DNA of 64,000 nucleotides, taken from assembly GCA_022509185.1 (NCBI GenBank), contig JAFLTS010000010.1, positions 1 through 64,000 of the forward strand, read 5' to 3'. Position 1 is the stretch's first letter, and each line of letters opens with the position of its first letter. The position numbers and the translations under genes are program-made. A model generated the notes under the pieces. It was not told the origin of the DNA. It did not search any database and worked only from the letters and a program-made list of their open reading frames with translations. Positions 18,707 through 61,816 of the stretch are shown here, piece after piece. This DNA comes from Muribaculaceae bacterium (GTDB lineage Bacteria; Bacteroidota; Bacteroidia; Bacteroidales; Muribaculaceae).

Positions 18707-18780
18707 CGGGGTGTAGCACAGTTGGTTAGCGCGCTACGTTCGGGACGTAGAGGTCGGAAGTTCGAGTCTTCTCACCCCGA
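18707..18780 (+). tRNA. tRNA-Pro (anticodon CGG)
   Basis: A 74-base cloverleaf. The acceptor stem is CGGGGTG / CACCCCG with discriminator A. The anticodon arm is CTACG-TTCGGGA-CGTAG with anticodon CGG, and the T arm carries the TTCGAGTC loop. The 3' CCA is not encoded. The CGGGG acceptor start is typical of proline tRNA. Confidence 0.95.
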
Positions 18781-18789
18781 CAAACCAAA

Positions 18790-18846
18790 AGGTGGATAAA
18801 TTTGGCTGCTTGCAACCACTTGAAAAAATGCTAAAAATGCAAAGTC
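18790..18846 (+). promoter_or_regulatory. SAM-II-like riboswitch aptamer
   Basis: P1 stem AGGTGG (18790-18795) pairs with CCACTT (18816-18821) around a 20-base loop. The loop ends in the conserved TTGCAA, and a GCTAAAAA block follows at 18830-18837. Loop TTGC (18810-18813) can pair with GCTAA (18830-18834), giving the H-type pseudoknot of the SAM-II class. The order stem, loop ending TTGCAA, stem, A-rich linker, GCTAAAAA matches that class as I know it. It lies upstream of metK, which fits feedback by S-adenosylmethionine. A covariance-model search has not been run. Confidence 0.75.
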
Positions 18847-46235: not shown

Positions 46236-49200
46236 ATGAGAAAATCTACTATTTTTGGATTGACTGCTGGTTTGGCTCTCAGTGCCGGTATCGTATTTGC
46301 CGCTCAGAGCACAAATAGCAGTCCGGCTACACAAGCTGATGATGATGTCATTAACGACGGAACCATCAGTTATGTGCTGACACCTGCTCCCGGTTATGTT
46401 GCTGAAGGTGATCTCAGCCAAATAACCGTTGTTTTCAACAACCCTAATGTTGGTTTCTACGAAAATATGTCAGTAGCAACATTGGAATTAATAGGGGGTG
46501 AAACTTATTACTGTTCAGAGCCTGAGTATGGAAGTCGTACAGAAGATGGATATCAAACCTGGATACTTAACTTCCAAGAATTGGGTGAAGAAGAAAATGT
46601 GACCATTAACCAAACTGGTACCTATATCCTTACACTCCGTGGATGGTATACTACTACTCTCGAAGGTGAGGTTGAAAGTGAGCCGGTTGACCTCCCGGTT
46701 ATGACTGCCGGTTATACTATCTACCCAGAAGAGTATACTATTTATCCTGCAGTTAACGGTTATGAATCAACTTACAACTTTACAGGTGTAAAAGTTTACT
46801 TTGAAGAGGGTCAGGAACTTGGTGAAGGTATCACTCTCGAAGGTGGTAATGAAGAAGGTACAAAGACCTATACAGGCCAAGCTTACCCCGCTAACGAAAA
46901 TGATAATACTGAATGGTTAATTGAATTCAACAATGAAGGTAATTTGCCGGCCGGAACTTATACAGTTACTATTCCTGTAGCGGGTCAAGATGAACCCATC
47001 GTTTCTGTATTCAATTTGGTTGATGTTGACACTACTCCTTCATTCAACCTTGAACCCGGTATTGTTAATGAACTTAACGGTCTGATCGTTACTTTCGCTG
47101 ATCCGAACGTAGGCGTTATGGATGGAGTAATGCCGGCTGTTGCTGTTCTTGAAAACACTACAACTGAAGATGTTTACTATTGCTGGGAACCTACCGACCT
47201 CGGCCGCAATAGCGAAGGTGGAAGATCTTTCCAATTTGAATTCTCAGAACTGACTTCAAAAGACGTTGTTGCAGAACTTCCTATTGGTAATTATACACTT
47301 ACCCTCAAAGGTTTCTATGTAGACGTTATCGATGAAGATGTTGTTCTCGGTTCATTCAATCTTCCTGTTATCGAAGAGTCATATACTTTGATTCCTAATG
47401 GTCTTGTATCTCTTTCACCATCAACTTTAAGCACTGTTACCGATCTCAGCACAATCACTGTTACATTAAATGACAAATTGGCTGGTTTCCAGGATAATAA
47501 TGTCATATATCTTGAAAATACAACTGCAGATGTTACATATCAGTGTACTGAACCGGAACAGCAGAGACCTGATGAGGATGGTTACAAGAGCTGGGTTCTT
47601 ACATTTACTTTAGCTGGAGAGAATACACCGGTTGAAATTACAGAAGTTGGTGCATATGTACTTACTCTCAGAGGTTTCTACCTGACACTTGGTCAAGATG
47701 AAGAAGGAAATGATATTAATTTCGATCTTCCTCCTTTGACTTACTACTATGATCTTCTTCCCGAAGGTTATATCTCATTCGATCCGGAATCAGGTGCAAC
47801 TGTAGAAAACCTCAGCACAGTAACAGTTACCATCCAGGATAATGTAAATGTTGAAAATCAACGTGGCAATGCTGTTATGCTCCAAAACGCTACAACAGGC
47901 GTTGAATATTTAGGCTCAGTAGATGTAGACTATACTGAAGATGCTAATGGAGCTTATACTACTCTCACAGTAACATTTGTTGACGAGGAAGGAAATGATG
48001 TAGTAGTTAATACAGTAGGAAACTACATTCTCTCTCTCAGAAACTGCTACGTTGTAAATGAAGAAGATGAAACAGATGTAATGAGTGTTCTTCCGGTATT
48101 TACCGCTGAATATTCAGTTATCCCGGAAAACTATCTGTCAATCTCACCTGAAAATGGTTCAACCCTTGCTCAGATCCAAGAGCTTACTCTTACATTCGAA
48201 GGCCGTGTAGGATTCGAACAGGCATATCCCGGAAATGTAGTAATCGAAAACACTACTACAGGTAATGCATGGTATTGCTCAGAACCTCTGTTCGTTGGAT
48301 ATCAATACAATGAAGAAACCGACCAGGTATGGAGCGTTTATACAGTAGAATTTACTGATCTTAACGGTACAGAAGTTGTTACAATTGACGAAGTTGGTAA
48401 CTATGTAGTATCTGTAAAAGGATTCTATATCAACCAGAACGAAGATGCTGAAGAAGAAGAACCCGGATATCTCCCGGTATTCAGTGCAGGTTATACTATC
48501 CTTCCTTCAGGCTATGTAACCTTCTCTCCGGAAGCAGGAACAACAGTAGAAAACCTCAATGAAATTACTATCACATTCGAAGGTAAGGTAGGTTACACTG
48601 AAGTAGTACCTGCCAACGTAACTGCAGAAAACACTACAACCGGTAACTCATGGTATAGTTCAGAGCCATTATTCAAAGGATATGATGAAAACGGTAATTC
48701 AGTTTATTCAATCACCTTTAAAGAAATTGGCGGAACAGAAGCCGTTCAAATTACTGAAGCCGGTAACTATGAAGTAACTGTAAGAGGATTCTATATCAAC
48801 AATAACGAAGATATTGAAGATGAAGAAATTCCCGGATATCTCCCTGTTATCACAGTTAAATACTCAATCTACGAAGAAGGCACATTCACTTTGACACCGG
48901 AATCAGGTTCAGAAGTTAAGTCAATCAACACAATCGTATTGACCTTCAATGAAAATCCGATGGTAGGTATCTATGAACTCCGTCCTGCTCCCGTAGTTCT
49001 TGAAAACCTCACAACAGGTGATGTATGGTATTGCGAAACTCCGTTGAAGAATCGTCTTGGCGATGCTAGCACAGAATTCACAATGAACTTCTCATCACTT
49101 GGTGCTGAAGAAGAAGAGGACATCATGACAGAGGGAACATATCAACTCATCGTTAAGGGTCTCTATGAAACAAAGACTATAAATGAAACAACTGATAAAG

Positions 49201-49436
49201 ACGGAAATGTTACTTCTTATGAAGAAGTAAATGAAGATCTTCCGAATGTATACGCTACATATTACGTAGTAAACGGAACAACAGGTGTTCAAAACCTCTT
49301 CAACGCAGACAGCAAGTTCAATGTATACAGCATCAATGGTATCCAGATTGTAAGAAACGGCAACGCTGACTCACTCAACAGCCTCACCCCGGGTCTTTAC
49401 ATCATCAACGGTAAGAAAGTTCTTATCCGCAAATAA
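46236..49436 (+). CDS. secreted protein of tandem ~120-residue beta-rich repeats
   Basis: A 1066-residue exported protein with a type I signal peptide (about 1-22, ending FAA) and about eight repeats (first about 43-160, a diverged second, then 265-1010 in regular succession). Each reads: P-x-x-G-x-x-x-x-L-x-x-I-x-V-x-F, an ENTTTG segment, a Y-C-x-E-P box, G-x-Y-x-L-x-x-R/K-G-F-Y, then an LP-x-x-x-x-Y close. The pattern is Ig-like beta sandwich. The last 40 residues (VYSINGIQIV...LYIINGKKVLIRK) repeat the tail of the protein at 30835. No catalytic motif. Codon use looks strongly biased, as in highly expressed genes. Probable surface or matrix protein; inference. Confidence 0.72.
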   Translation: MRKSTIFGLTAGLALSAGIVFAAQSTNSSPATQADDDVINDGTISYVLTPAPGYVAEGDLSQITVVFNNPNVGFYENMSVATLELIGGETYYCSEPEYGSRTEDGYQTWILNFQELGEEENVTINQTGTYILTLRGWYTTTLEGEVESEPVDLPVMTAGYTIYPEEYTIYPAVNGYESTYNFTGVKVYFEEGQELGEGITLEGGNEEGTKTYTGQAYPANENDNTEWLIEFNNEGNLPAGTYTVTIPVAGQDEPIVSVFNLVDVDTTPSFNLEPGIVNELNGLIVTFADPNVGVMDGVMPAVAVLENTTTEDVYYCWEPTDLGRNSEGGRSFQFEFSELTSKDVVAELPIGNYTLTLKGFYVDVIDEDVVLGSFNLPVIEESYTLIPNGLVSLSPSTLSTVTDLSTITVTLNDKLAGFQDNNVIYLENTTADVTYQCTEPEQQRPDEDGYKSWVLTFTLAGENTPVEITEVGAYVLTLRGFYLTLGQDEEGNDINFDLPPLTYYYDLLPEGYISFDPESGATVENLSTVTVTIQDNVNVENQRGNAVMLQNATTGVEYLGSVDVDYTEDANGAYTTLTVTFVDEEGNDVVVNTVGNYILSLRNCYVVNEEDETDVMSVLPVFTAEYSVIPENYLSISPENGSTLAQIQELTLTFEGRVGFEQAYPGNVVIENTTTGNAWYCSEPLFVGYQYNEETDQVWSVYTVEFTDLNGTEVVTIDEVGNYVVSVKGFYINQNEDAEEEEPGYLPVFSAGYTILPSGYVTFSPEAGTTVENLNEITITFEGKVGYTEVVPANVTAENTTTGNSWYSSEPLFKGYDENGNSVYSITFKEIGGTEAVQITEAGNYEVTVRGFYINNNEDIEDEEIPGYLPVITVKYSIYEEGTFTLTPESGSEVKSINTIVLTFNENPMVGIYELRPAPVVLENLTTGDVWYCETPLKNRLGDASTEFTMNFSSLGAEEEEDIMTEGTYQLIVKGLYETKTINETTDKDGNVTSYEEVNEDLPNVYATYYVVNGTTGVQNLFNADSKFNVYSINGIQIVRNGNADSLNSLTPGLYIINGKKVLIRK

Positions 49437-49510: not shown

Positions 49511-49542
49511 TTTGCTTTTGGTCCGAAATTTGACTAATTTTG
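49511..49542 (+). promoter_or_regulatory. promoter of the 49771 lipoprotein gene
   Basis: A -33 TTTG (49511-49514) and a -7 TAATTTTG (49535-49542), 20 bases apart. The leader would be about 220 bases. Confidence 0.7.
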
Positions 49543-49770: not shown

Positions 49771-51480
49771 ATGAAGACTATGATTAAGTTTAGGAAACAA
49801 TACATAATGACGGCAGCCGCGATAGCGACTATCGGTTTGGCCTCATGTTCCAATGAGCTTAACGAGGCTGATTTAGGAAATTCAGGAGGAAACCTTACTC
49901 AGATAGGAGAGGTTTCTTTAGTCAAGACACCTGATGTGGTGGCCTGGTCTGGTAAACAAACTTTAGGCAACAGCACAAAGGCTATTCAAACAAGAGGAGG
50001 TCAAAATGCCAATGGCAATATGTGGTCCAACACATATGATGTGCCGGGAGCAATTTCACAGGAGGAGAAAGACAAAGTTGTGGCTGAATTTTCTAAAGTT
50101 CGTGAAAATTGGGTAAACAAAACTGTTGTAACCTGGGATAACTTCTTTATTCAGCAAGTATATAAGGGAGAAACCCATTATAAGGATGGTTATAATCAAG
50201 ATTTCTTGGGTTCAGACAAGATGAATGAACTTTATGTTTATTGTCCTTTAGATTGGAATTCATGGAATGGCGGTTATGACCATGCTGGTGGTTTCAACGG
50301 TGGAAAAGGAGATCAGAACAATGGTATTGCTTTATATGAACATATGAGCGATATTATAGCTAAGGCAGGTAAACAATTCGCGTATTCCAACAGCCAGGAT
50401 GGAGGGAAAATGTATTTTGACTATATTATTCTTCTGATTGACGGAGAATACTATGTAGGTTTCGATTTCTGGGCAAACGGCCAGAACCCAAATGAAAAAG
50501 TAAAAAGAGACTGGGTTTTCAATGACTGGATAGTAAAGATTCTTCCGGGTGAAAACACAAATACTTCAATAGAACCGAATGATCCGAGATATTTAGGCCC
50601 GGGTGATGATGTAGCTGATGATGAGGATGATCCGACCTTACCTGATGATGGAAATGATGAAAATGATGGCGATGATACAGTTATAGCAATTGAACATAAC
50701 CAAGAAGTTGAGGTGAACTATGCAATTCTTGATTCACATTCTGACTATAAAATTGCAGACCTTGTGACAAAATTGTCAATCCACGTGCGTTATGCAACTG
50801 ATGTAGATATTAAGATTCCGGTTCCTATCCATTATCTGATTGAATCTGATGACCTATATATATTCAAAGAACACTTTGTAGAAGGTGATGGAAATGGAAT
50901 TTACGGAGGTTACACAAATACTGACTTTGAGAATTTCCTCGAAAATAAGAATACAAGTGTTTCTTACAATATAGATGGAAATGTCGTGACTCTGTATGTT
51001 GATTTTGAACCTGCCGATATTACTTTAGGTGAGTCATTCAAATTCGGATATATACATGTCTACACAAGAGGAATCAACCAGAATGTGATAGATGCTTGTT
51101 GGGAATATAATAAAGATGGAATAAACTTCGAGGTTTATAACTACTTCCAGACAGAAAAAGTGGTATGGAATGAAGGAGATGAATTTGCAAGTGTGGAAGA
51201 GGCAAACGATCTTAACCGTAAGGATCTCTACAAGGCAATGAATGAATCCCTTATAGAATTCACTTATGAACCACCTTATTATATCAATGCTTTCGGTTAT
51301 GATTATAATAATGGTAATGTAACTGAAGATCAACATCAATGGCATGCAACCGTAGTTCCTATGGAAAAAGAGGGTTATAAGGATCCCTACACTACCACCC
51401 ATCTGAACTCTACGCCTTACAATGATATATACGTACATAGTGACGTAAAAATGGTGGATGACCTTCACAGTGAAAGATAA
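49771..51480 (+). CDS. large lipoprotein of unknown function
   Basis: A 569-residue lipoprotein (signal ending IGLASCS, Cys about 27). The mature N-terminal half (to about 270) is rich in Trp, Tyr, Asn and Gly. A short acidic linker of Asp/Glu repeats follows (about 280-310, DDVADDEDDPTLPDDG-like), and then a second globular domain to the end. No family is recognised and no catalytic motif is evident. Alternative starts exist at residues 4 and 13. It has its own promoter, a long structured leader and a terminator, and lies just upstream of the exopolysaccharide-type operon, so a surface or matrix role is possible. Confidence 0.75.
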   Translation: MKTMIKFRKQYIMTAAAIATIGLASCSNELNEADLGNSGGNLTQIGEVSLVKTPDVVAWSGKQTLGNSTKAIQTRGGQNANGNMWSNTYDVPGAISQEEKDKVVAEFSKVRENWVNKTVVTWDNFFIQQVYKGETHYKDGYNQDFLGSDKMNELYVYCPLDWNSWNGGYDHAGGFNGGKGDQNNGIALYEHMSDIIAKAGKQFAYSNSQDGGKMYFDYIILLIDGEYYVGFDFWANGQNPNEKVKRDWVFNDWIVKILPGENTNTSIEPNDPRYLGPGDDVADDEDDPTLPDDGNDENDGDDTVIAIEHNQEVEVNYAILDSHSDYKIADLVTKLSIHVRYATDVDIKIPVPIHYLIESDDLYIFKEHFVEGDGNGIYGGYTNTDFENFLENKNTSVSYNIDGNVVTLYVDFEPADITLGESFKFGYIHVYTRGINQNVIDACWEYNKDGINFEVYNYFQTEKVVWNEGDEFASVEEANDLNRKDLYKAMNESLIEFTYEPPYYINAFGYDYNNGNVTEDQHQWHATVVPMEKEGYKDPYTTTHLNSTPYNDIYVHSDVKMVDDLHSER

Positions 51481-51511
51481 CGGAGTGATTCCGTAAAGAA
51501 ATTAAACATAG

Positions 51512-51544
51512 AAAAAGGGATGCCTCAGGTATCTCTTTTTTTTG
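51512..51544 (+). terminator. terminator of the 49771 lipoprotein gene
   Basis: AAAAAGGGAT (51512-51521) pairs with ATCTCTTTTT (51531-51540) with one G-U pair, followed by more T. The loop can extend by CCT/AGG. Confidence 0.8.
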
Positions 51545-51552
51545 TAAATTTG
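51545..51552 (+). promoter_or_regulatory. -7 box of the exopolysaccharide-type operon
   Basis: TAAATTTG directly follows the preceding terminator T tract; the ATG of the next gene is 12 bases further on. No good -33 box at the usual distance. Confidence 0.55.
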
Positions 51553-51563
51553 TAATTGGTAAA

Positions 51564-52850
51564 ATGGATTCAATTGCTGAAATATCATATTGGTATAATC
51601 TTGCCCTCACATATATTGTGATCGGGATTACCTGGCTTTTTGATCATTTCCGTGATTTTTCATGGATTATAAGAGTAGCGGCTATTTCACTATCCATTTC
51701 ATTATGGCTGATTCTGATAAGTTTATATAAGATTTTTATCAAAGCCTTCAGGCGTAGAAAAGCCATGAAGCTGGAAAAAAGGCTAACAGAGAGATACGGC
51801 GATGCAATAAATTATATACTTTCTCCACAGGCACCTGACAAAATGGGAAGAGACGAGGAAATGGAGCTTTTAGGGATAGATTCAACCGAAAGCGACCCCC
51901 GTAAACTTCTTAAGGGCTATAAAGAGAAACTATGCATGGCTCGTATAATTTATAAGGCAAGGATTTCTGAAGAAGCGGCTGTGGAAGGGAGCAGAAACCT
52001 CCATGTTTTATTGGGGATTTTTGGCCTTATTGAATTTCTCGAGGAGATAATTGTAAAAGACAGACTTCATCAGAAGGTAGAGGCTTTACTTATGCTCAGA
52101 GCGTTCAAAGCTCCCACCAATCAATGGGTAGCGAATCAACTTATCAACAACAAACGAAGAAGAGTTAAAAGGCTGGCCATGTATGCTTCGATAATGAGTA
52201 GTGCCAATACTGATCTAGGATATTTTGAGAGTGATTTCTTTGCCGAGAATTTCTGCATGTACGACGAGATTCAGCTTGGTTTCGTTCTGCAGAGAAGAAA
52301 GAGTGCCCGACGCAAGATACCCAATCTGGCTCATTGGGCCGTCATGCAGAAGAATCCTCAGACCCAGGCCATGTTTGTGAGAATGATGCGTCAGTTCAAT
52401 CAGAAAGAATATTGCGGAGAACTGGAAGACTTGTTTCAGCATAACAGCGATTCAGAGATTATCGAGGAGATAGCAAGAACATGGGGTTATCTTAAATACA
52501 CTGAAGGGGAGGAACAGATGAAAGACATGATGCTTACTCAACCTGATGGTGGAAAAGTAGCCATAATGCATGCTTTGACGAGACTTAACACCGGTGAAAG
52601 CCTTAATACTCTTCTTGACGGATACAAAAACAGCGGCTCTCAACATGTGAAATTCGAAGCCTTAAGATGTATATACTGGTATGGAGATGAAGGTCGACAG
52701 AAATTCCTTGCATTAAAGGCTTCTGCTACAGAAAAAGAAAAACCTCTTTTTGAATTTTTTGAAAATCCACTTACTCAAAAGGATCTTCCTCTCGAAAAGA
52801 CAGCCCGGTATCATTCCGAATATGGCGACAATCTCTATTCTGTTGTTTAA
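51564..52850 (+). CDS. membrane-anchored HEAT-repeat protein of the exopolysaccharide-type operon
   Basis: A 428-residue protein with two N-terminal membrane helices (about 9-27 and 33-59) followed by a basic stretch, which puts the rest in the cytosol by the positive-inside rule. The remainder is all-helical with repeating pairs reminiscent of HEAT repeats (about 150-400, e.g. HQKVEALLMLRAFK, HVKFEALRCIYWYGD). No enzyme motif. It directly precedes a membrane GT2 synthase (65-base gap). By analogy with small partner subunits in Pga- or Pel-type systems it could be a scaffold or regulator of the synthase; this is inference. Confidence 0.72.
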   Translation: MDSIAEISYWYNLALTYIVIGITWLFDHFRDFSWIIRVAAISLSISLWLILISLYKIFIKAFRRRKAMKLEKRLTERYGDAINYILSPQAPDKMGRDEEMELLGIDSTESDPRKLLKGYKEKLCMARIIYKARISEEAAVEGSRNLHVLLGIFGLIEFLEEIIVKDRLHQKVEALLMLRAFKAPTNQWVANQLINNKRRRVKRLAMYASIMSSANTDLGYFESDFFAENFCMYDEIQLGFVLQRRKSARRKIPNLAHWAVMQKNPQTQAMFVRMMRQFNQKEYCGELEDLFQHNSDSEIIEEIARTWGYLKYTEGEEQMKDMMLTQPDGGKVAIMHALTRLNTGESLNTLLDGYKNSGSQHVKFEALRCIYWYGDEGRQKFLALKASATEKEKPLFEFFENPLTQKDLPLEKTARYHSEYGDNLYSVV

Positions 52851-52915
52851 AAGTAACCTTGTATCGACCATAGGCCATACACTAAAAACCAAAAAAAGCA
52901 AACCATCAACCACCC

Positions 52916-54400
52916 ATGTGGGTCGTAATATATTACATATTTTCTTATTTAGTTTTTTTCTACACCTTGGTAGCCATGGTGTTTCTGGTGTATTTAGCTG
53001 TGAGAAGCAATACGGCACAGAAGAGGCTATTGGTGAATGTACCGGATGATGATACCATAAGATACACACTAAAGTCATCACCGATTACACCGACGGTTTC
53101 CATCATAGCACCTGCTTTCAATGAGGAAAAGACAATTCTTGATAATGTATATTCTCTATTAGGAATATATTATCCTAATTACGATATTATTATCGTTAAC
53201 GACGGGAGTAAGGATAAGACATTGGAACTGTTGATCAAGGAATTTAAACTTGAGAGCATACCATTCATAAATCAAAAGAGAGTACCCTCAAAACCTATCA
53301 AAGCTGTATATAAATCAACCGAAGAAAGATTTTCCCAAATCACGGTAGTAGACAAAGAATCAGGAGGCCATAAAGCTGACAGTGTAAATGCAGGCCTGAA
53401 TGTTTGTTATTCAAAATATTTTGTCAGTACAGATGTAGACTGCATCATAGAACCGATGGCGTTATATCGAATGATATGGACGGTAATAAACAGCCATGAA
53501 CCGATGGTTGGAGTGGGTGCAACCATGTTGATGCTCAATGGCTGCATAGTGGAAGACGGCCGGGTCGTAGAAGCCAAGGTGAGCAACAATCCCTTACCCG
53601 TTTTTCAACAACTGGAATACATGCGATCCTTCCTTATCGGAAAAATGGGATGGTCGAGTATTAACACTCTTCCTAATATTTCGGGCGGCTTCGGACTTTT
53701 TGATACTGAGGTTGTGGTGAAGTCGGGAGGTTATGATTCCACAAGCCTTGCTGAAGACCTGGATCTTCTCATGAGGATTGTGACCTATATGGAAAATACA
53801 GGGAAAGATTATCGCCTTGCTCAATTGCCGCAGGTTTGTTGCTGGACCGAGGGACCATATAACCTTAGACTTTTATGGCGCCAGAGGACAAGATGGTCGA
53901 GAGGCTTGTGTGAGGTAGTGTCGAGTCACCGCAAACTCTTCTTCAATTATAAATATAAGAGGATGGGTCTCCTCACTTTGCCATACATTTTCATATTTGA
54001 ATTTTTAGCCCCGTTGATCGAAGCAAGCGGTTTCCTTTTCATGATATGGTTGGTTCTGGTAGGAGCCGTTAACTGGAATACTGCCTTTGTGATTTTCGGG
54101 ATGATTTATGTGTTTGCAATCTCGCTGACATTCCTTGTGCTCGTTTATGACTATCTGATTAAAGCTGTGAATTGGAAGAGTTCATGGCGCAGCTATCTAA
54201 AACTTATTATAGCGGGAATAACAGAACCTTTCCTATTCCATCCTTTTATCACTTTCTGTAGCCTGGCGGGATATTTCAATTATTTCCGCAACAGAGGAAA
54301 AGAATGGAAAACAATTAAGAGAAAGGGAGCAAAGAAACGGAATGACAGATCCGGAAAAGATAACATTAATGATATTCCTTTGGAAGGGAATATGCCTTAA
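52916..54400 (+). CDS. processive-type membrane glycosyltransferase family 2
   Basis: A 494-residue inner-membrane GT2 enzyme: one N-terminal helix (about 8-29), a cytosolic GT-A domain and four or so C-terminal helices (about 350-450). Catalytic motifs are complete: APAFNEE (65-71), the VNDGS motif (94-98), D173-V-D175, E280-D281 and Q323-R-T-R-W327, the QxxRW box of processive synthases. It belongs to the hyaluronan/chitin/PgaC-like group that makes and extrudes beta-linked polymers. The polymer sugar is unknown. It sits between the HEAT-repeat gene and the outer-membrane exporter gene. The basic C-terminal tail of about 35 residues is hydrophilic. Confidence 0.88.
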   Translation: MWVVIYYIFSYLVFFYTLVAMVFLVYLAVRSNTAQKRLLVNVPDDDTIRYTLKSSPITPTVSIIAPAFNEEKTILDNVYSLLGIYYPNYDIIIVNDGSKDKTLELLIKEFKLESIPFINQKRVPSKPIKAVYKSTEERFSQITVVDKESGGHKADSVNAGLNVCYSKYFVSTDVDCIIEPMALYRMIWTVINSHEPMVGVGATMLMLNGCIVEDGRVVEAKVSNNPLPVFQQLEYMRSFLIGKMGWSSINTLPNISGGFGLFDTEVVVKSGGYDSTSLAEDLDLLMRIVTYMENTGKDYRLAQLPQVCCWTEGPYNLRLLWRQRTRWSRGLCEVVSSHRKLFFNYKYKRMGLLTLPYIFIFEFLAPLIEASGFLFMIWLVLVGAVNWNTAFVIFGMIYVFAISLTFLVLVYDYLIKAVNWKSSWRSYLKLIIAGITEPFLFHPFITFCSLAGYFNYFRNRGKEWKTIKRKGAKKRNDRSGKDNINDIPLEGNMP

Positions 54401-54420
54401 AGAAAGATAGACTCAGGTTT

Positions 54421-57237
54421 ATGAATCTGAAAAATAGAAATATCCTAAAAATATTTATAACGTTGCTCATCGGTTTGTCGGGATGGCCGGTAATTCCGTT
54501 GTATAGCCAACCGCAAGGAAAGGATGTACACACGAGCCGATATTATGTTTCCCGAGCGGAGGAACTTGAGAATTCAAACGCGTGGGAAGCAGCCAAGAAG
54601 GAGATAGACGAAGGGTTGAAACTTTATCCGGAAGATCCCGATCTTCTTTATCTTAATGGAAAATATTATTATCAAGCCAGAAGAGATCTGCAGAAGGCAC
54701 GCTATAATCTTGTCAAGGCCTTGCAGATAAGCGACCATCACTGGGGGGCAAGGCGTCTCCTGATAGATGTGGAAGATGAATCAAATCATTATTCCAGTGC
54801 TATCTGTTATATCAACGAGCTTCTGGAACAACAACCATACGACCGCGACCTCTGGCGCAGAAAGATCGCCTTGTATAGAAAAACAGGTAATAAGGTAGAG
54901 GCTGATGCCGCTTTGGAACGCCTGGCCCGGATATATCCCAACGACTCAATAGTGATAAGGGAGAGGAATGCCATTCAACGTGACAACTGGACCCGAAGAC
55001 TAAGCACATCAAGTATGGCCGAGCAAATAGCAAAGCTTGAAGAGCTAGTGAATAATAATCCGGATGTCCTGGATTACTACATGGAATTGAGCGACCTCTA
55101 TATAAAGATGGGAGATTACGATAAAGCCTTAAATGTGGCAAAAAGAGGATTGGTTGTATTCCCCGCTAACAACACTTTGGTGCAACGGGTGGCAAGCCTT
55201 ATGTCAGAACAGGGATTGTATACAAGAGTTCTCTCATTTCTAAAGGAAAACAGAGTAGGAGGGGCTTATTACGCGAACGCCATGCGAGAGGCTGTGAATG
55301 ATGCACGCTTGAGAGATCCTTATGATATTTCCGGCCGTCTTTATGACACAACCGGAGACCGAGATGCTTTAAGCTATCTGCTGAATACTTCAATCACACG
55401 TGGATATTATGACGATGCCCTGATGTATCTGAAAGAGGCATATAAAATTGAGGGTAGAACAAATGATCTTCTGCTAAAGGAATACGAACTTCATAAAAGG
55501 ATGGGGAACGAAGGAGCGGCTTCAAGACTGCTTCAGGAATTATTTTCAAATAATCCGGATGACCCGGATTTGAAAGAGGAATATATAGCAATGCAGTTGC
55601 AGCTTGCAAATATTGATGGAGAACAGGAAGACTGGGAAGGTGCTTACAAACGCCTTACCGATGCTTCAAAATACATGCCTGTAGGTTCCGACCAGTGGGT
55701 GGCCGCAGTGTCAAGAAGAATCAATATTCTCGGCAAATTAGGAAAATGGGAAGAAGCTCGAAGGCTTTATGGAGAGGCAAGTACAGATGATCCTGTAAAC
55801 CGCAGCCGGTTTGCTGCCGCTTACGAAGATTTCATGGCCTTGAAGATAAAAGATCTAATTGAGAACGACCGTTATGAAGAGGCTTTGCATACGGCTCAGG
55901 ATCTTTTGAGTACAATTCCAGATAGCGAAACAGCAGTGAGGGCATCTATAAACATGAGCCAGACTTTAAAGAAGAATGATCTTTTTTATAAGTATGCAGC
56001 AAAGGGATATGAATTATTTCCTGATCAGCCTTATTTTATTATCAGGCAGGCAGTAGCGCTTCAACAACAAGGAAGGTATCCACAAGCACTCTCACTCCTG
56101 GATCCTAAAAAAGATGGTTCTACATATGCTAATCCACAGCTGATAGCTCCTTTTGCAGGAATGTCGCAGGATTTTGCTCAATATCTTCTTGAGCAAAAAA
56201 TGCCGGAAGAGGCCCTCTCCAGAATTGATGCAGCTCTGGAATTCGATCCGGATAACCGCGACCTACTTTATATGAAGGGCGTTGCTTATGAACAGATGAG
56301 GGATTTTAAAAATGCCTATCAATATCAGGTTAAGAATTATAATCCGAGTAATGCCGAACAAGAGGAATGGATGGAGCATATGAGATATCTGAGCACAAGA
56401 AGTCTTCCCAACCGTTTTATGCTTTCTTATACCGGAGCTTATTATGATACTCGGCAGGAAGAACTTGCATCGGTAGGACATTTATATTCCGTAGCATCTT
56501 TAGGGTATGCTCACTTATGGAAAAACACTTCAATTTCTGCAGGAATTAATTACAAGGCAACAGACGGCTATAACGACGGGACATTATATGAGTCCGGAGG
56601 CTCCGGCTTGGAAGGCTGGGCCGAAGTGAACCAGACATTACCTCACGGGTGGAATATGATGATTAGTGGTTCCTATGGTAATAAATACTTTAATAAGGTT
56701 GGAGGGAACCTGGCTTTTATGGCTTCTTTGAAGAAGGGATGGAGTTTGGGAGCAAAAGCCTCTTACAGGCTTACACCACCGGTGGTGCTCTATGAAAAAA
56801 ATACCGGATGGCAGAAAACTTACAAACGTCGCAATTTAGGGTTATTAGGTCCAAGAGTGTCAAAAGAATGGAATAAAATAGGACTTCACCTTAATTTGGA
56901 TTTAATAGCCCTTGATGTCAAGGAATTCTATTACAACGTGTCCCTGCAAGGTAAATTTTTTATCAAAGATGATGCGGTATCAGCAATATCAGCCTTAGCG
57001 GGAGTGGGTTCCTTCCCGGAGTTGACTTTTTTCGATGAGTTAACAATGAACGGTATCAGTAATATGAATGCCATGGTTGGAGTTGATGGGACTTTCTTAG
57101 TGACAAAAAATCTTATTCTAGGTATATCAGGAGCCTGGAACACATTTTATGATCCCAAATTCACGGAAGAGGGAAAGGCAGTAGACTCTTACCGAAATAT
57201 ATATTCTATTACAGGAAATATCCAAATTTGTTTCTGA
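54421..57237 (+). CDS. TPR plus outer-membrane beta-barrel exporter-like protein (YaiO-type)
   Basis: A 938-residue exported protein with a signal peptide (about 1-30, ending LYSQ). A long superhelix of TPR repeats (about 35-650, e.g. YMELSDLYIKMGDYDKALNVAKRGL) occupies the periplasmic part. From about 664 the protein turns into amphipathic beta strands typical of a barrel, ending in aromatic Phe (IQICF). The architecture is that of PgaA or PelB-type exopolysaccharide exporters: a TPR domain joined to an outer-membrane barrel. It follows the GT2 synthase by 20 bases and precedes the DUF4838 lipoprotein by 12. The identity with YaiO-like barrels is by eye. Confidence 0.8.
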   Translation: MNLKNRNILKIFITLLIGLSGWPVIPLYSQPQGKDVHTSRYYVSRAEELENSNAWEAAKKEIDEGLKLYPEDPDLLYLNGKYYYQARRDLQKARYNLVKALQISDHHWGARRLLIDVEDESNHYSSAICYINELLEQQPYDRDLWRRKIALYRKTGNKVEADAALERLARIYPNDSIVIRERNAIQRDNWTRRLSTSSMAEQIAKLEELVNNNPDVLDYYMELSDLYIKMGDYDKALNVAKRGLVVFPANNTLVQRVASLMSEQGLYTRVLSFLKENRVGGAYYANAMREAVNDARLRDPYDISGRLYDTTGDRDALSYLLNTSITRGYYDDALMYLKEAYKIEGRTNDLLLKEYELHKRMGNEGAASRLLQELFSNNPDDPDLKEEYIAMQLQLANIDGEQEDWEGAYKRLTDASKYMPVGSDQWVAAVSRRINILGKLGKWEEARRLYGEASTDDPVNRSRFAAAYEDFMALKIKDLIENDRYEEALHTAQDLLSTIPDSETAVRASINMSQTLKKNDLFYKYAAKGYELFPDQPYFIIRQAVALQQQGRYPQALSLLDPKKDGSTYANPQLIAPFAGMSQDFAQYLLEQKMPEEALSRIDAALEFDPDNRDLLYMKGVAYEQMRDFKNAYQYQVKNYNPSNAEQEEWMEHMRYLSTRSLPNRFMLSYTGAYYDTRQEELASVGHLYSVASLGYAHLWKNTSISAGINYKATDGYNDGTLYESGGSGLEGWAEVNQTLPHGWNMMISGSYGNKYFNKVGGNLAFMASLKKGWSLGAKASYRLTPPVVLYEKNTGWQKTYKRRNLGLLGPRVSKEWNKIGLHLNLDLIALDVKEFYYNVSLQGKFFIKDDAVSAISALAGVGSFPELTFFDELTMNGISNMNAMVGVDGTFLVTKNLILGISGAWNTFYDPKFTEEGKAVDSYRNIYSITGNIQICF

Positions 57238-57249
57238 CAAACTTTTACA

Positions 57250-58983
57250 ATGAATTTCAGAACTTTTTGTTTTATCAGTATCTTAATATCTGTCTTAACA
57301 TTTCCGAGCTGCTCTCCGGCAAGAAAAATTGAACAAGATAAAGAAATATCAGCTTTCAAATACCGTGAGGTTTATTTACCGGAAGCCTTAGGGAAAGGTG
57401 CCGATTCGTTAGGATTAAATTCGCTGGATGAAGACTGGGGTATCTGGGGGCATAATCTTTCCAATGTGTTGCCAGAAGATCCTTCAGAATCTGTATATGC
57501 CAAAGTGAACGGAGTGACCCACAGGAGTCAGTTTTGTTTCTCTTCAACCAAGCTCCACGAGTATATTTCAGAATATATCAGGGATAATTATGGCAGGAAC
57601 GATAAAGCCAGGTTCTCCATCATCCCTAACGACAATGATATAGTATGCCTATGCCAGGTGTGTGTGGAAATAGGGAATACAAAAGGGAATGCCTCGCCTG
57701 CGTTGTTCAGTTTGATTAACAAATTATCAGAGGAATTTCCCAACCATATTTTCTATACTTCAGACTATCGCACCACGAGCCAAGTGCCAAATGATACCCT
57801 ACCACAAAATGCCGGGGTCTTGATAAGCGCAATAAATTATCCTCTTTCGTACGCTGAAACTCCGCAAGAAATAGCATTTATGGAAAGGCTGGATGAATGG
57901 AATACCAAGACTAAAAGAATACTCATCTGGGATTATATAAATAATTTTGACGATTATTTCACTCCTTTCCCTGTGTTTGGAATAATGCAAAGGAGATTGC
58001 AAAATTACAAGGATAAAAATGTGACCGCGGTGTTTCTTAACGGAAGCGGACCTGATGCAAGCAGTCTTAGTGATTTAAAATCTTTTGTGCTGGCTGAACT
58101 GACGGCCAATCCTGATGCAGATTGGAAGAATCTTTTGGAGAAGAAAGCCCGGGAAAATTATCCGGTTACCGGAAAAGCTATATCTGATTTTATGATAGCC
58201 CAGGAAAATTTTGTGAAAGAAAATTTATCCCTGTTGCCTTTATATGAAGGAGTTAATATAGCTCGGAAAACATATTTGCCTGAGGCCTTATTTCTGACTT
58301 TCCATGATAATATAAAAACTTTACAGGACAAAGCTCAGGGAGAAGAACGTGAAAAAATAGATATTCTCCTGGGAGAGCTGGCATTAACAAGGCTTGAATT
58401 AAATCGACTTAACGGAGATTTCTCCAAGAGTGAAATATGGATTAAAGATATTGAATCCCTTTTAGATAAAAATATTTCATCATATAATGAGTCGGGTTGG
58501 CTTATTGAAAGCTATCTTGCTGATTACAGACTTATGCTTCAAAAGGCAGAAGAATATAAGGATAATAATAAGCTGATGGGAAAGAATTTAAAAGCCTTAA
58601 CGCCTTTGGATGATGAATACTCCGATTTATCGGTTCTGACGGATGGTCTGTTGGGATTACCTTCCAATTATCACAACGGACACGTACTGATTTCACCCTC
58701 TTCTCAAACAAAAATAGAGATTCCCGGCATTGAAAATGGAAGAAAACTTATGGTTTGGCTTTCTTACAATCCGGGATATAAAATTTATTTACCACAAATG
58801 GTGAGTCTTAGTGCTCCAAATATGAATTCTATAGATGTAGAACCTCAATATCCCAAAGATCTTTCAGGACATTCGTTGGTGGAATTTGAGTTGCCGGAGG
58901 AAATTTCAGGCCCCTTCACACTTATTCTGACCAAAGATCCTGAAAAACGCTCTATGGCCATAGAAGAAATAATAATAATATAA
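57250..58983 (+). CDS. DUF4838 family lipoprotein, possible glycoside-hydrolase-like
   Basis: A 577-residue lipoprotein (signal ending LTFPSCS, Cys about 21). The N-terminal half has the DUF4838 pattern: the IIPNDNDIVCLCQVC cysteine-containing segment, a PALFSLINKLSEEFPNHIFYTSDY strand-helix, and RILIWDYINNFDDYFTPFPVFG, with acidic and aromatic residues that could serve a sugar-cleaving site. The family is found in proteins that act on polysaccharides, and several members sit beside hydrolases. The C terminus is a beta-sandwich-like tail. In this operon it fills the position of PgaB-like hydrolases in other exopolysaccharide systems; the reaction is unknown. Confidence 0.72.
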   Translation: MNFRTFCFISILISVLTFPSCSPARKIEQDKEISAFKYREVYLPEALGKGADSLGLNSLDEDWGIWGHNLSNVLPEDPSESVYAKVNGVTHRSQFCFSSTKLHEYISEYIRDNYGRNDKARFSIIPNDNDIVCLCQVCVEIGNTKGNASPALFSLINKLSEEFPNHIFYTSDYRTTSQVPNDTLPQNAGVLISAINYPLSYAETPQEIAFMERLDEWNTKTKRILIWDYINNFDDYFTPFPVFGIMQRRLQNYKDKNVTAVFLNGSGPDASSLSDLKSFVLAELTANPDADWKNLLEKKARENYPVTGKAISDFMIAQENFVKENLSLLPLYEGVNIARKTYLPEALFLTFHDNIKTLQDKAQGEEREKIDILLGELALTRLELNRLNGDFSKSEIWIKDIESLLDKNISSYNESGWLIESYLADYRLMLQKAEEYKDNNKLMGKNLKALTPLDDEYSDLSVLTDGLLGLPSNYHNGHVLISPSSQTKIEIPGIENGRKLMVWLSYNPGYKIYLPQMVSLSAPNMNSIDVEPQYPKDLSGHSLVEFELPEEISGPFTLILTKDPEKRSMAIEEIIII

Positions 58984-59030
58984 TATCTTCTTTTCTATCA
59001 ACGTTTTAAATACGAACAAATATAATAAAA

Positions 59031-59924
59031 ATGAAAACAAAATTCATTAGCGGTGCCTTTTTGTTAGGCCTTGTGGCTTTTACTTCATGTGGTAAAAGCG
59101 AATCAACCATTACTCAGACTTATAATCTGAATGCAGTAAACCTTATCACTGACGTTACAGACGGAAGCACATTTGCTTCAGAAGGTTGGTATTATTTTGA
59201 TCTCACAATAAGTGACATGAAAGGCTCTGTGGCAGCTTCCAATCTTATTCTCAATAATACGGCAGTGAATTTTACTTCAGCTGTTGAACCTTATACCTCT
59301 ACAGGATATGACATTTATTTCAAAAATTTAACCGTGCCTTCCCAAAATGTGACAGACGGAAATTTCCTTCTTTCACCCTATTTTTATTTCCCTAAAATGT
59401 ATAATATCACTTCAGCTGATATGTATGTACCACAGGCTTCATTGGTTTTAATTGCTAATTATAATGTGGGGGAAAATTATAAGGTAAAAACTTTCCAAAA
59501 AAATACTTTCTATGTAGGAAAAACTACCACACAGTATAATATGATGGGTGTGGATCAGACATATGAGACTGAGGATATTTACTACCAACTTTCATTAGAT
59601 TTGAAAGAAAGTAAGGCACAGCTTCTGATGTTTAATGCCAAGTTTTCAAATGTGGAACAAGAGCCTAAGAAAGCACAGATTAATCTTAATGACCTGAAGG
59701 TTGAATACACTGACGGAGTAATTAAGGTTTATGGAGAAAATATAATACCGGAAGTTGTAGAAGGTAATGCAACTACACCGAATGAAGATTTTATTTTCAA
59801 TACAATAGAATTCACTACCACAAGTGAGGATCTCACTCAATGTGAAATCAAATATCAGGTAGCAGGAAGATTTTATGGCTCATTCACAGGTGCATATGCC
59901 GACACTTCATATTTAAAGAAATAA
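59031..59924 (+). CDS. lipoprotein of unknown function
   Basis: A 297-residue lipoprotein (signal ending AFTSCG, Cys about 20). The mature part is beta-rich with many Asn, Thr and Tyr. No family or active site recognised. It follows the DUF4838 gene by 47 bases and ends in a strong terminator, so it is probably the last gene of the exopolysaccharide-type operon, though no coupling is visible. Confidence 0.7.
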   Translation: MKTKFISGAFLLGLVAFTSCGKSESTITQTYNLNAVNLITDVTDGSTFASEGWYYFDLTISDMKGSVAASNLILNNTAVNFTSAVEPYTSTGYDIYFKNLTVPSQNVTDGNFLLSPYFYFPKMYNITSADMYVPQASLVLIANYNVGENYKVKTFQKNTFYVGKTTTQYNMMGVDQTYETEDIYYQLSLDLKESKAQLLMFNAKFSNVEQEPKKAQINLNDLKVEYTDGVIKVYGENIIPEVVEGNATTPNEDFIFNTIEFTTTSEDLTQCEIKYQVAGRFYGSFTGAYADTSYLKK

Positions 59925-59961: not shown

Positions 59962-59995
59962 AAACGGTATCTTGATTTCAAGATACCGTTTTGTT
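59962..59995 (+). terminator. terminator at the end of the exopolysaccharide-type operon
   Basis: A perfect 14-bp stem (AAACGGTATCTTGA / TCAAGATACCGTTT) with a two-base loop, followed by a T-rich run. Confidence 0.88.
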
Positions 59996-60053: not shown

Positions 60054-60084
60054 ATTGTGGAATGGTCTCTAAATAGTATCTTTG
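60054..60084 (+). promoter_or_regulatory. promoter of the ECF sigma gene
   Basis: ATTG (60054-60057, -33-like) and TATCTTTG (60077-60084, -7) are 19 bases apart. The TTG inside the -7 box is in frame with the sigma gene but is not a plausible start. Confidence 0.6.
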
Positions 60085-60102
60085 TGGAAAGAAAAAATTT
60101 TA

Positions 60103-60660
60103 ATGGCTTATAAAGCACCCATAGATGAGAAAGAGCTCGTAAAACAGCTTCAAGACGAAAAGACGGCGTCAAAAGCATTCGAGACTCTTTTACAATACTA
60201 TAGTGAGCCCGTGTATTGGCAGATACGCCGGATGGTGCTTAATCATGACGATGCCAACGATGTAGTGCAGAATGTTTTTATTAAAGCATGGAGTAATCTG
60301 CACAATTTCAGAGGGGATGCCAAACTCTCTACCTGGCTGTTTAAAATTGCCGTAAACGAATCTATAAATTTCCTTAACAAAGAGAAGCACAGAGTTCAAA
60401 GCACCGGGGATATGGAAGAGGAAAGTGTCATGATGCGAAATCTAGAGGCTGATGAATATTTTGATGGAGATGACCTACAGAAAAGGTTTCAGATAGCAAT
60501 TTCAAATTTGCCAGAAAAACAGAAACTTGTGTTTAATATGAGATATTACGACGAGATGAAATATGAAGAAATGTCAGAAATATTGGGAACCTCTGTCGGT
60601 GCATTAAAAGCAAGCTATCATCACGCGGTGAAAAAACTTACAGAATGGCTAAGTGAATAA
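60103..60660 (+). CDS. ECF-type RNA polymerase sigma factor
   Basis: A 185-residue sigma-70 family factor of the ECF type: region 2 (LLQYYSEPVYWQIRRMVLN through AKLSTWLFKIAVNESINFL) and region 4 (LPEKQKLVFNMRYYDEMKYEEMSEILGTSVGALKASYHHAVKKL, helix-turn-helix). It lacks regions 1 and 3. An upstream TTG at 60082 is in frame but lies inside the -7 box, so the ATG at 60103 is preferred. It heads a group with a membrane protein, a Spy-like protein and an alpha-2-macroglobulin gene. Its likely targets are envelope or stress genes; inference. Confidence 0.92.
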   Translation: MAYKAPIDEKELVKQLQDEKTASKAFETLLQYYSEPVYWQIRRMVLNHDDANDVVQNVFIKAWSNLHNFRGDAKLSTWLFKIAVNESINFLNKEKHRVQSTGDMEEESVMMRNLEADEYFDGDDLQKRFQIAISNLPEKQKLVFNMRYYDEMKYEEMSEILGTSVGALKASYHHAVKKLTEWLSE

Positions 60661-60670
60661 AAACAACAAC

Positions 60671-60690
60671 GGCCGGTTTCCCAACCGGTC
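60671..60690 (+). other. small GC-rich hairpin after the sigma gene
   Basis: GGCCGGTT pairs with AACCGGTC (one G-U pair) around a TCCC loop. No T tract follows, so it is not a terminator by itself. It may stabilise the sigma mRNA end. Confidence 0.5.
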
Positions 60691-60729
60691 GGAGCCTATC
60701 ATTAATAAACAATTTTCAACTAACCAAAC

Positions 60730-60792
60730 ATCATGAATTTCTTTATATCATTAGAACATCCTGCAAAAAGAAAAGTTCATGATAAATTTTTT
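60730..60792 (+). terminator. bulged hairpin with T tract between sigma and the next gene
   Basis: ATCATGAATTTCTTT (60730-60744) pairs with AAAGAAA and TTCATGAT (60767-60783) with a two-base AG bulge, and six T follow at 60787-60792. It could end most sigma transcripts or attenuate read-through into the anti-sigma-position gene at 60834. Confidence 0.55.
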
Positions 60793-60833
60793 CCAAGCGT
60801 TAAACTATCTTAAATGAGATTAGTCTTAATGAT

Positions 60834-61298
60834 ATGAGACAGGAAGAAGAACTGATAAATAGATTCGGGAAAGATTCGGGAATGAAAGTTCCCGAGAATT
60901 ATTTCCCTGATCTTCAGAAAAATATATTGAATAAGTTGCCGGAGTATCCTAAGGTTGTTCGCACAGTTGACCACACCAGATGGCAGCGAATAAAACCGTA
61001 TGTTTACCTTGCAGCCATGTTCTGTGGAATATGGTTAATGATGAAGGTGTTTCATACAGCTACACAGCCTATGTCAATGAGCCTCGACAATCCACCTGCC
61101 GCTCTTGTGGATATGATAGACTCTGATTACGATTATGATATCCATTATGTACCTTATATACCGGACAATTTCTATGAAGACGAGGATTTCATAATGAGCT
61201 ATGATAACATAGAGGATTTCGAAAAAGATTTTGATTATTCATTCCAGCCGGAATATTCCACTATTACAACTTCTTCTCAAAACGATAAAAACGGATAA
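60834..61298 (+). CDS. single-pass membrane protein in the anti-sigma position
   Basis: A 154-residue protein: a short cytosolic N terminus (about 1-50, no zinc anti-sigma HxxxCxxC motif), one membrane helix (about 52-71), then an acidic Asp/Tyr-rich periplasmic segment to the end. It follows the ECF sigma gene by 173 bases. Such genes often encode a membrane-bound anti-sigma factor, but the sequence shows no recognisable anti-sigma domain, so this role is inference from position. A Spy-like gene lies 26 bases downstream. Confidence 0.65.
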   Translation: MRQEEELINRFGKDSGMKVPENYFPDLQKNILNKLPEYPKVVRTVDHTRWQRIKPYVYLAAMFCGIWLMMKVFHTATQPMSMSLDNPPAALVDMIDSDYDYDIHYVPYIPDNFYEDEDFIMSYDNIEDFEKDFDYSFQPEYSTITTSSQNDKNG

Positions 61299-61324
61299 AA
61301 AAGACTGATAACCGGATCTTTACT

Positions 61325-61816
61325 ATGAAGAAAATATTCTTATCGATACTATTTATAATAACCTTGATACTTCCTGCATCGGCTAAGGGAGAAGATGGCA
61401 CACGACGAGAGAAAATGATGCGTGAGGTGATGGAATTTAAAATGAAATATCTCGCCCAGGAAATGCAACTTTCTGAATTGCAAAAGAAAAAATTCTATGA
61501 GCTTTATGAGGAAATGTGTGAGAGTAAAAAGGATTGTTACCAAGAGGCAGTGGTAATGGACCGTAAACTGAAAGAGGAAAAGAATCCGAGTGAGGAAGAA
61601 TATCAACAAGTAAGAAATGCATTCAATACTGCAAACGCAAACTGGGCAGCCACACAAAAGGAGTATGACGAAAAATTTTCTGAATTTCTCACTCAAAAAC
61701 AAATATACAAAATGCAGGAAGCTGAATCAAGTTTCCGAGGTAAGTTTGAAGAAATGAAACATAAGCGTAAGAAAGATCATCATAAAGGCAATCAGGTTAA
61801 AATTGGTGAGAAATGA
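61325..61816 (+). CDS. Spy/CpxP-like periplasmic protein
   Basis: A 163-residue exported helical protein: signal peptide (about 1-21, ending ASA), then long amphipathic charged helices (EFKMKYLAQEMQLSELQKKKFYELYEEM and a second pair) as in the LTxxQ/Spy fold, and a basic His/Lys-rich tail. Spy-type proteins act as periplasmic chaperones or stress sensors. The stop overlaps the ATG of the next gene (ATGA), so it is translationally coupled to the alpha-2-macroglobulin gene. Confidence 0.7.
   Translation: MKKIFLSILFIITLILPASAKGEDGTRREKMMREVMEFKMKYLAQEMQLSELQKKKFYELYEEMCESKKDCYQEAVVMDRKLKEEKNPSEEEYQQVRNAFNTANANWAATQKEYDEKFSEFLTQKQIYKMQEAESSFRGKFEEMKHKRKKDHHKGNQVKIGEK

Follow-up and report, generated by a model that had tools for sequence, protein, structure and literature searches.

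A conserved HEAT-GT2-TPR-barrel-DUF4838 gene order in Muribaculaceae resembling synthase-dependent polysaccharide secretion systems

Introduction

Activation by cyclic di-GMP (c-di-GMP) is usual for synthase-dependent exopolysaccharide secretion, although it does not strictly define it. Here we analyzed a candidate system of this kind in a 64,000-nucleotide stretch of DNA from a Muribaculaceae bacterium (GenBank assembly GCA_022509185.1, contig JAFLTS010000010.1, positions 1 to 64,000; hereafter the window), whose genome (G000) comprises 2.19 Mb in 59 contigs. An earlier note made from the sequence alone had proposed a secretion operon of four genes at positions 51564-58983, encoding a HEAT-repeat protein, a family 2 glycosyltransferase (GT2), a tetratricopeptide repeat (TPR) superhelix fused to an outer-membrane barrel, and a DUF4838 lipoprotein. 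Our analysis of motifs and conserved gene order supports this reading, with polymer production and secretion predicted from the genes. We consider it likely that the unit is a synthase-dependent system for polysaccharide secretion that works without control by c-di-GMP, and its product is probably a polymer containing beta-linked N-acetylhexosamine (beta-HexNAc) that is trimmed by the DUF4838 enzyme.

Escherichia coli Pga, encoded by pgaABCD, likewise consists of four adjacent genes, as in strain K-12, and includes a GT2 with a QxxRW box, a TPR-barrel fusion, and a glycoside hydrolase lipoprotein (PMC9384988). The same paper presents the TPR region of PgaA as a scaffold that binds poly-beta-1,6-N-acetylglucosamine (PNAG) and modulates PgaB, and PelB and BcsC as single proteins that join a long TPR region to a barrel, with 19 TPRs predicted in each. 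In the yaiO-yaiX-yaiP-yaiS region of E. coli K-12, a YaiO barrel and a GT2 (YaiP) are found in one gene group, YaiO being also the Pfam family of the barrels in relatives of the window unit, but no HEAT or DUF4838 gene is annotated and an insertion sequence interrupts yaiX. We know of no product assigned to this region. The Pel and cellulose systems have synthase parts other than those of the window unit, and they differ from it further in that no PilZ domain was listed for the scanned proteins and no GGDEF domain was found in the genomes that carry it.

A survey of synthase-dependent operons covered 1758 genomes, largely from Proteobacteria (47%), Firmicutes, and Actinobacteria, and its text contains no word starting with Bacteroid, HEAT, or YaiO (PMC7112194). 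The gene set analyzed here is real and conserved, and it probably represents a variant form of synthase-dependent polysaccharide secretion. The earlier note knew of no named polymer for this layout, and our literature search found no description of it in the titles and abstracts searched, with most subscription journals outside coverage.

Four adjacent genes and their products

The four open reading frames (ORFs) are uninterrupted, share one strand, and follow each other in the order and at the coordinates that the earlier note had given, with intergenic distances of 65 nucleotides (nt) for HEAT/GT2, 20 nt for GT2/TPR-barrel, and 12 nt for TPR-barrel/DUF4838:

51564..52850, + strand, HEAT-repeat protein of 428 amino acids (aa), proposed synthase partner (HEAT_2 match below cut-off, hydropathy, and profile alignment)
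52916..54400, + strand, GT2 glycosyltransferase of 494 aa, predicted processive type (Glycos_transf_2 match, motifs, and hydrophobic segments at both termini)
54421..57237, + strand, TPR superhelix with C-terminal outer-membrane barrel, 938 aa (TPR by Pfam and structure model; barrel by homology)
57250..58983, + strand, DUF4838 (GH163-like) lipoprotein of 577 aa, proposed polymer-trimming hydrolase (DUF4838 score; FPSC with Cys21)

The GT2 matched Pfam Glycos_transf_2 at 66.6 bits and contains NDGS, TDVD, AED, and QRTRW motifs starting at residues 95, 172, 279, and 323, the last being the complete QxxRW box that had been noticed earlier. Across 14 aligned sequences that comprised relatives and E. 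coli PgaC and YaiP, residues D173, D175, E280, D281, R326, and W327 were invariant (14/14), and Q323 and R324 were each kept in at least 90%. Hydropathy placed hydrophobic segments at residues 1-31 and within residues 350-418. The DxD, ED, and QxxRW motifs together with these segments point to a processive-type inner-membrane enzyme; a non-processive GT2 was one result that the earlier note had said would count against its proposal. Identity to the GT2 of the nearest Muribaculaceae metagenome-assembled genome records was 80 and 79%. The genome contains 25 Glycos_transf_2 matches, two of them within the operon GT2 gene, and no close second copy of this GT2, the three other matches having E values of 3.5e-6 or weaker.

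The HEAT protein matched HEAT_2 with an E value of 6.2e-5 and 23.6 bits, under the cut-off of 27.7, and its family aligned over 362 columns (hhalign, 99.4%) to a HEAT protein from a distant locus, where a response regulator, YaiO, HEAT, and GT2 are encoded together. A hydrophobic segment at residues 32-62, followed by a basic stretch, is likely transmembrane, and a second hydrophobic segment lies at residues 146-164 (hydropathy). The HEAT solenoid is presumably cytosolic.

The third protein matched many Pfam TPR models. The structure prediction suggested by the earlier note was built from three sequences and is usable for the TPR part only, where it contains 34 helices within residues 39-660, forming about 17 helix pairs, at a predicted local distance difference test score (pLDDT) mostly of 55-84. 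A signal-like N-terminus suggests that this TPR region is periplasmic. YaiO (PF19413) exceeded its cut-off in the exporters of L060, L063, L064, L110, L111, and L112, all of which are in the alignment of the window protein, and no Pfam barrel did so in those of L032, L050, L051, L054, and L055. Alignment with relatives is full-length, and the terminal Phe is invariant (17/17). Because YaiO passes in aligned relatives and not in the window protein, the window barrel is assigned by homology and not directly; of the fusion described in the earlier note, the TPR superhelix was confirmed by Pfam and the model, and the barrel stands by homology with the YaiO relatives.

The fourth protein matched Pfam DUF4838 at 124.4 bits against a cut-off of 26.6 and has a lipobox-like FPSC ending at Cys21. 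Comparison of 18 operon copies with 20 proteins from other loci revealed eight residues shared by all 38 DUF4838 proteins (H68, D128, Y173, N187, W217, W227, D228, and E414). These findings, together with its conserved place in the gene order, bear out the DUF4838 lipoprotein of the earlier note; its role as a polymer-modifying hydrolase is a prediction from the family.

Conservation of the gene order

GT2 matches with an E value of 1e-30 or better occurred in 15/297 genomes of the family and 26/198 genomes of the order, the window's own included, and matches at 1e-50 occurred in 94/395 genomes of the phylum. The HEAT-GT2-TPR-barrel-DUF4838 order was present at all 16 Muribaculaceae loci examined (the window, L032, and L048-L061). 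The TPR-barrel frame is split in two at L061, and at L053 the HEAT and DUF4838 genes are both cut by contig ends, with HEAT recovered by tblastn at 60% identity. Outside the family, we found the four-gene order at L062, L063, L064, L110, L111, and L112, and HEAT-GT2-YaiO-DUF4838 with a shorter barrel at L122, L169, and L170. The DUF4838 gene of L062 starts at a contig end and is cut; a first locus count had scored L062 without DUF4838 and L053 without HEAT, and tblastn located both cut genes. The shorter exporters of L066, L113, L122, L124, and L126 are Pfam YaiO proteins with TPR matches. Because the order recurs in relatives, the four-gene arrangement is more than chance. The earlier note had suggested this search across Bacteroidetes and had held that scattered genes would speak against an operon; the order instead recurs within and outside Muribaculaceae.

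We compared the flanks of 15 Muribaculaceae loci and distinguished eight contexts: one common to L032 and L048, one common to L055-L061, and those of the window, L049, L050, L051, L052, and L054, each shared with no other compared locus. Gene order was kept while the surroundings changed.

More broadly, HEAT was encoded directly upstream of GT2 at 38/40 phylum, 18/26 order, and 15/16 Muribaculaceae loci. YaiO-like neighbors were detected at 29/40 phylum and 20/26 order loci, counts that are upper estimates because the home-made profile responds to TPRs as well, with matches at L082-L086. DUF4838 was near GT2 at 4/40 phylum and 3/26 order loci (2/26 without L062). A small receiver-type protein was near GT2 at 33/40 phylum and 14/26 order loci and at none of the 16 Muribaculaceae loci.

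On an 80-row tree of the GT2s, 2 changes sufficed to explain the DUF4838 label, versus a mean of 18.8 for shuffled labels. All but one of the 21 DUF4838-labelled rows grouped together (support, 82), and L122 fell in a neighboring trio with two DUF4838-less loci, the joint 24-row group having a support of 99. In the family of G633 (the source of L122, L169, and L170), presumably a flavobacterial one, a DUF4838 match at 1e-60 was present in 21/249 genomes. Among 20 DUF4838 stretches compared besides G633, L169 and L170 have HEAT-GT2-YaiO-DUF4838, and their DUF4838 proteins are the closest in sequence to that of L122 (57% and 43%). At the other 18, none of the up to six genes compared on each side matched the HEAT, GT2, or barrel profiles, some stretches being short; one of them, L178, had a receiver match.

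Two further arrangements were observed. L122 (3868-16414) contains tandem HEAT-GT2 pairs, with a DUF4838 gene after the second only. L082-L086 were set apart as a different layout, in which a more distant GT2 is followed by a TPR protein of ~520 aa and a protein of ~1010 aa (no Pfam match in L083), and L083 also encodes a ~609-aa protein with a weak deacetylase match below cut-off. The ~1010-aa family occurs near the HEAT-GT2 loci L065, L066, L068, and L075 as well.

Comparison with Pga and c-di-GMP-controlled systems

The unit could be a PNAG system in disguise, with the GT2 as PgaC, the TPR-barrel as PgaA, DUF4838 replacing the PgaB hydrolase, HEAT replacing PgaD, and poly-beta-1,6-N-acetylglucosamine as the product. 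Consistent with this possibility, the GT2 matched PgaC/IcaA best among NCBIfam models, the TPR-barrel has a PgaA-like layout (hhalign, 84.2%), and a GH163 enzyme acts on an N-acetylglucosamine (GlcNAc) bond according to PMC10154615. However, the PgaC/IcaA score of 105 bits did not reach the cut-off of 422.3, and identity was 22% to E. coli PgaC and likewise 22% to YaiP. The PgaA match is largely confined to the TPR repeats, and these align with numerous TPR proteins. No deacetylase domain was listed for the seven proteins scanned, and a PgaB-type part was sought within the unit, where DUF4838 and PgaB gave an hhalign value of 0.2%. The HEAT profile likewise had no relation to E. coli PgaD (0.15%), and the relatives have a YaiO-type barrel, in contrast to Pga.

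Pga also has c-di-GMP parts, whereas no GGDEF match was found in the window's genome or in any of 17 carrier genomes, several of which are incomplete (79-99%); 8 of 14 control genomes had a match. PilZ was absent from the Pfam families listed for the scanned proteins (25 of 31 listed for the TPR protein). The earlier observation that the locus shares neither the deacetylase nor the c-di-GMP parts of Pga thus agrees with our results. By the tests made, the unit is not Pga, and we regard a disguised PNAG system as unlikely.

A probable six-gene unit

Two lipoprotein genes flank the four, X569 ending 83 nt before HEAT and LP297 starting 47 nt after the DUF4838 gene, and candidate signals lie beyond them:

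49511..49542, + strand, Bacteroidetes-type promoter-like match, TTTG-N-TANNTTTG (consensus match only)
49771..51480, + strand, X569, lipoprotein without assigned family (lipobox-like LASC, Cys26)
59031..59924, + strand, LP297, small lipoprotein without assigned family, in the slot of a DUF1573 protein in several relatives
59962..59991, + strand, terminator-like site ending the unit, 13-pair stem then TGTTTTTCGA (consensus match only)

Because of this promoter-like match and terminator-like site, X569-HEAT-GT2-TPR-barrel-DUF4838-LP297 is probably one transcription unit spanning 49771-59924. The span in the earlier note held the four genes and was too narrow, leaving out X569 and LP297. TTTG-N-TANNTTTG, which we take to be the Bacteroidetes-type promoter motif, had 6 matches in the window versus 1.95 expected, a number reached by 0/100 shuffles. 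Terminator-like sites in the region numbered 11 versus 7.9 by chance, with 59962-59991 having the longest + strand stem. A sigma-70 scan was uninformative (30 sites versus 33.2 by chance).

Neither X569 nor LP297 had a family above cut-off in Pfam and NCBIfam scans. X569 relatives were encoded upstream of HEAT at L032, L033/L048, L049-L052, and L054 (64-327 bits), and no match was found at the remaining loci searched beyond the window's closer kin; X569 appears to be fast-evolving. LP297 had no relative in the ORFs of 105 sequence sets searched.

These two proteins raise another explanation, in which no long polymer is made and a short glycan is instead built and displayed on an outer-membrane lipid or on X569 or LP297. 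The apparent presence in the unit of two lipoprotein genes without assigned family, one of them fast-evolving, would suit such a display system, as would the fact that GT2 processivity is judged by motifs only. Against it stand the complete QxxRW box and processive hydrophobic layout of the GT2, the exporter-type barrel in relatives, and the fact that searches of more distant operon loci found neither X569 nor LP297, so that we consider this explanation improbable.

A DUF1573 protein followed the DUF4838 gene at 9/16 Muribaculaceae loci by profile, and examples within and outside the family include L050 (14025-14624), L055 (14778-15299), and L063 (14188-14703). None was seen in this slot in the window, L032, L048, or L049.

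DUF4838 proteins within and outside the operons

DUF4838 proteins outside such operons share with the operon copies the Pfam family and the eight invariant residues, but they are divided from them by one tree branch and by changed positions. Most operon copies are changed at numerous positions conserved in the others, such as 81, 118, 196, and 286, and in a tree of 58 DUF4838 proteins one branch split 20 operon copies from 38 others, with a Shimodaira-Hasegawa-like approximate likelihood ratio test (SH-aLRT) value of 98. A search of the PDB with a profile of 17 operon copies yielded a sole match, the beta-hexosaminidase 6q63 (E value, 1e-5), which covered the N- and C-terminal parts only and was rejected as a solved catalytic template.

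According to the review PMC10154615, a Bacteroides thetaiotaomicron GH163 cleaves the GlcNAc-beta-1,2-mannose bond of complex N-glycans. The DUF4838 protein could accordingly be a catabolic GH163 acting on host N-glycans and lie beside an export operon by chance, as might be argued from that activity and from the 20 DUF4838 genes of the comparison set and 18/20 in the family of G633 that lie in other loci; this is very unlikely, since DUF4838 follows the barrel gene at 16/16 Muribaculaceae loci and at L062, L063, L064, L110-L112, L122, L169, and L170, and since the operon copies lie on one side of a single tree branch (with a long-branch warning).

A possible parallel comes from Polaribacter dokdonensis, in which a GT2 gene and, at a distance of two locus tags in the region of MED152_03905 and MED152_03915, a gene for a DUF4838 (GH163) protein were induced 8.8- and 18.5-fold with a picoeukaryote, both outside polysaccharide utilization loci (PMC9870897, Table 3). 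That table labels the DUF4838 protein GH163, and the paper names the product endo-beta-N-acetylglucosaminidase (GH163). By the likeness of gene labels, this DUF4838 gene may belong to a HEAT-GT2-type export operon.

Proposed secretion model

We propose a synthase-dependent secretion model in which the inner-membrane GT2 would polymerize a cytosolic nucleotide sugar and extrude the chain, as its family and motifs suggest. The membrane-anchored HEAT protein may contact the synthase from the cytosol and influence it there, filling the position of PgaD or PilZ parts in other systems. The TPR solenoid would cross the periplasm and lead the chain to its own YaiO-type C-terminal barrel, the predicted outer-membrane exit; these proposed roles of the TPR scaffold are modelled on PgaA as described in PMC9384988. 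The DUF4838/GH163-like lipoprotein, putatively at the periplasmic or outer-membrane face, may cut or trim the chain. Control would be independent of c-di-GMP, consistent with the absence of GGDEF matches. The family of the hydrolase, and the fact that the GT2 is nearest to PgaC, suggest, with less weight, a polymer with beta-linked N-acetylhexosamine. We infer the polymer, its sugar and linkage, the export path, the trimming, and the role of HEAT from sequence.

Several points weigh against this model. No Pfam barrel exceeded its cut-off in the window protein, and the barrel part of the structure model (about residues 661-938) had a pLDDT under 40. Because the PgaC model score is far under its cut-off, the proposed sugar and linkage are tentative. 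The lack of GGDEF may be a lineage trait, since the control Bacteroides ihuae also had no match. The majority of HEAT-GT2 loci have no DUF4838. A single-sequence DUF4838 model reached a pLDDT of 41 and placed no active site, and one cysteine of the CxCxxC motif is lost in L054 and one in L111. In the midpoint-rooted DUF4838 tree, operon copies L112, L122, L169, and L170 fell among non-operon ones; this root splits the operon copies and the tree program gave a long-branch warning, so that descent in either direction is conceivable.

A broader proposal, which we advance tentatively and hold somewhat less probable than not, is that Bacteroidota have a large unnamed class of systems with HEAT-GT2 and a YaiO exit, frequently coupled to response regulators rather than c-di-GMP. 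Its DUF4838 subtype would export a new beta-HexNAc polymer, trimmed by a GH163 recruited from, or ancestral to, glycan degraders. If this class is true and common, Bacteroidota would have matrix-polymer machines of their own, and some of the GH163 genes currently interpreted as glycan degraders would have to be understood differently.

Genomic surroundings of the operon

Recent insertion was rejected on composition, the guanine-plus-cytosine content being 0.406 for the four genes and for the window and 0.395 for the six-gene span. The operon was absent before the downstream sigma-factor gene at 12 relatives compared, some stretches being short. In the same-genus genome G362, the operon is on contig C2 and the sigma factor on C4, and its place therefore differs from that in the window.

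Downstream, positions 60082-63999 contain a gene for an extracytoplasmic function-type sigma factor, and after it come two genes (154 and 163 aa) and one long open frame. Several relatives share the sigma factor and the three following genes as one block, and the sigma factor is present in 50/61 genus genomes, its own included. Upstream, positions 46236-49436 encode a secreted 1066-aa protein with repeated units by eye, which had weak or partial matches in five others of the 61 genus genomes. At 18707-18844, a tRNA-Pro gene stands immediately before a SAM-II riboswitch.

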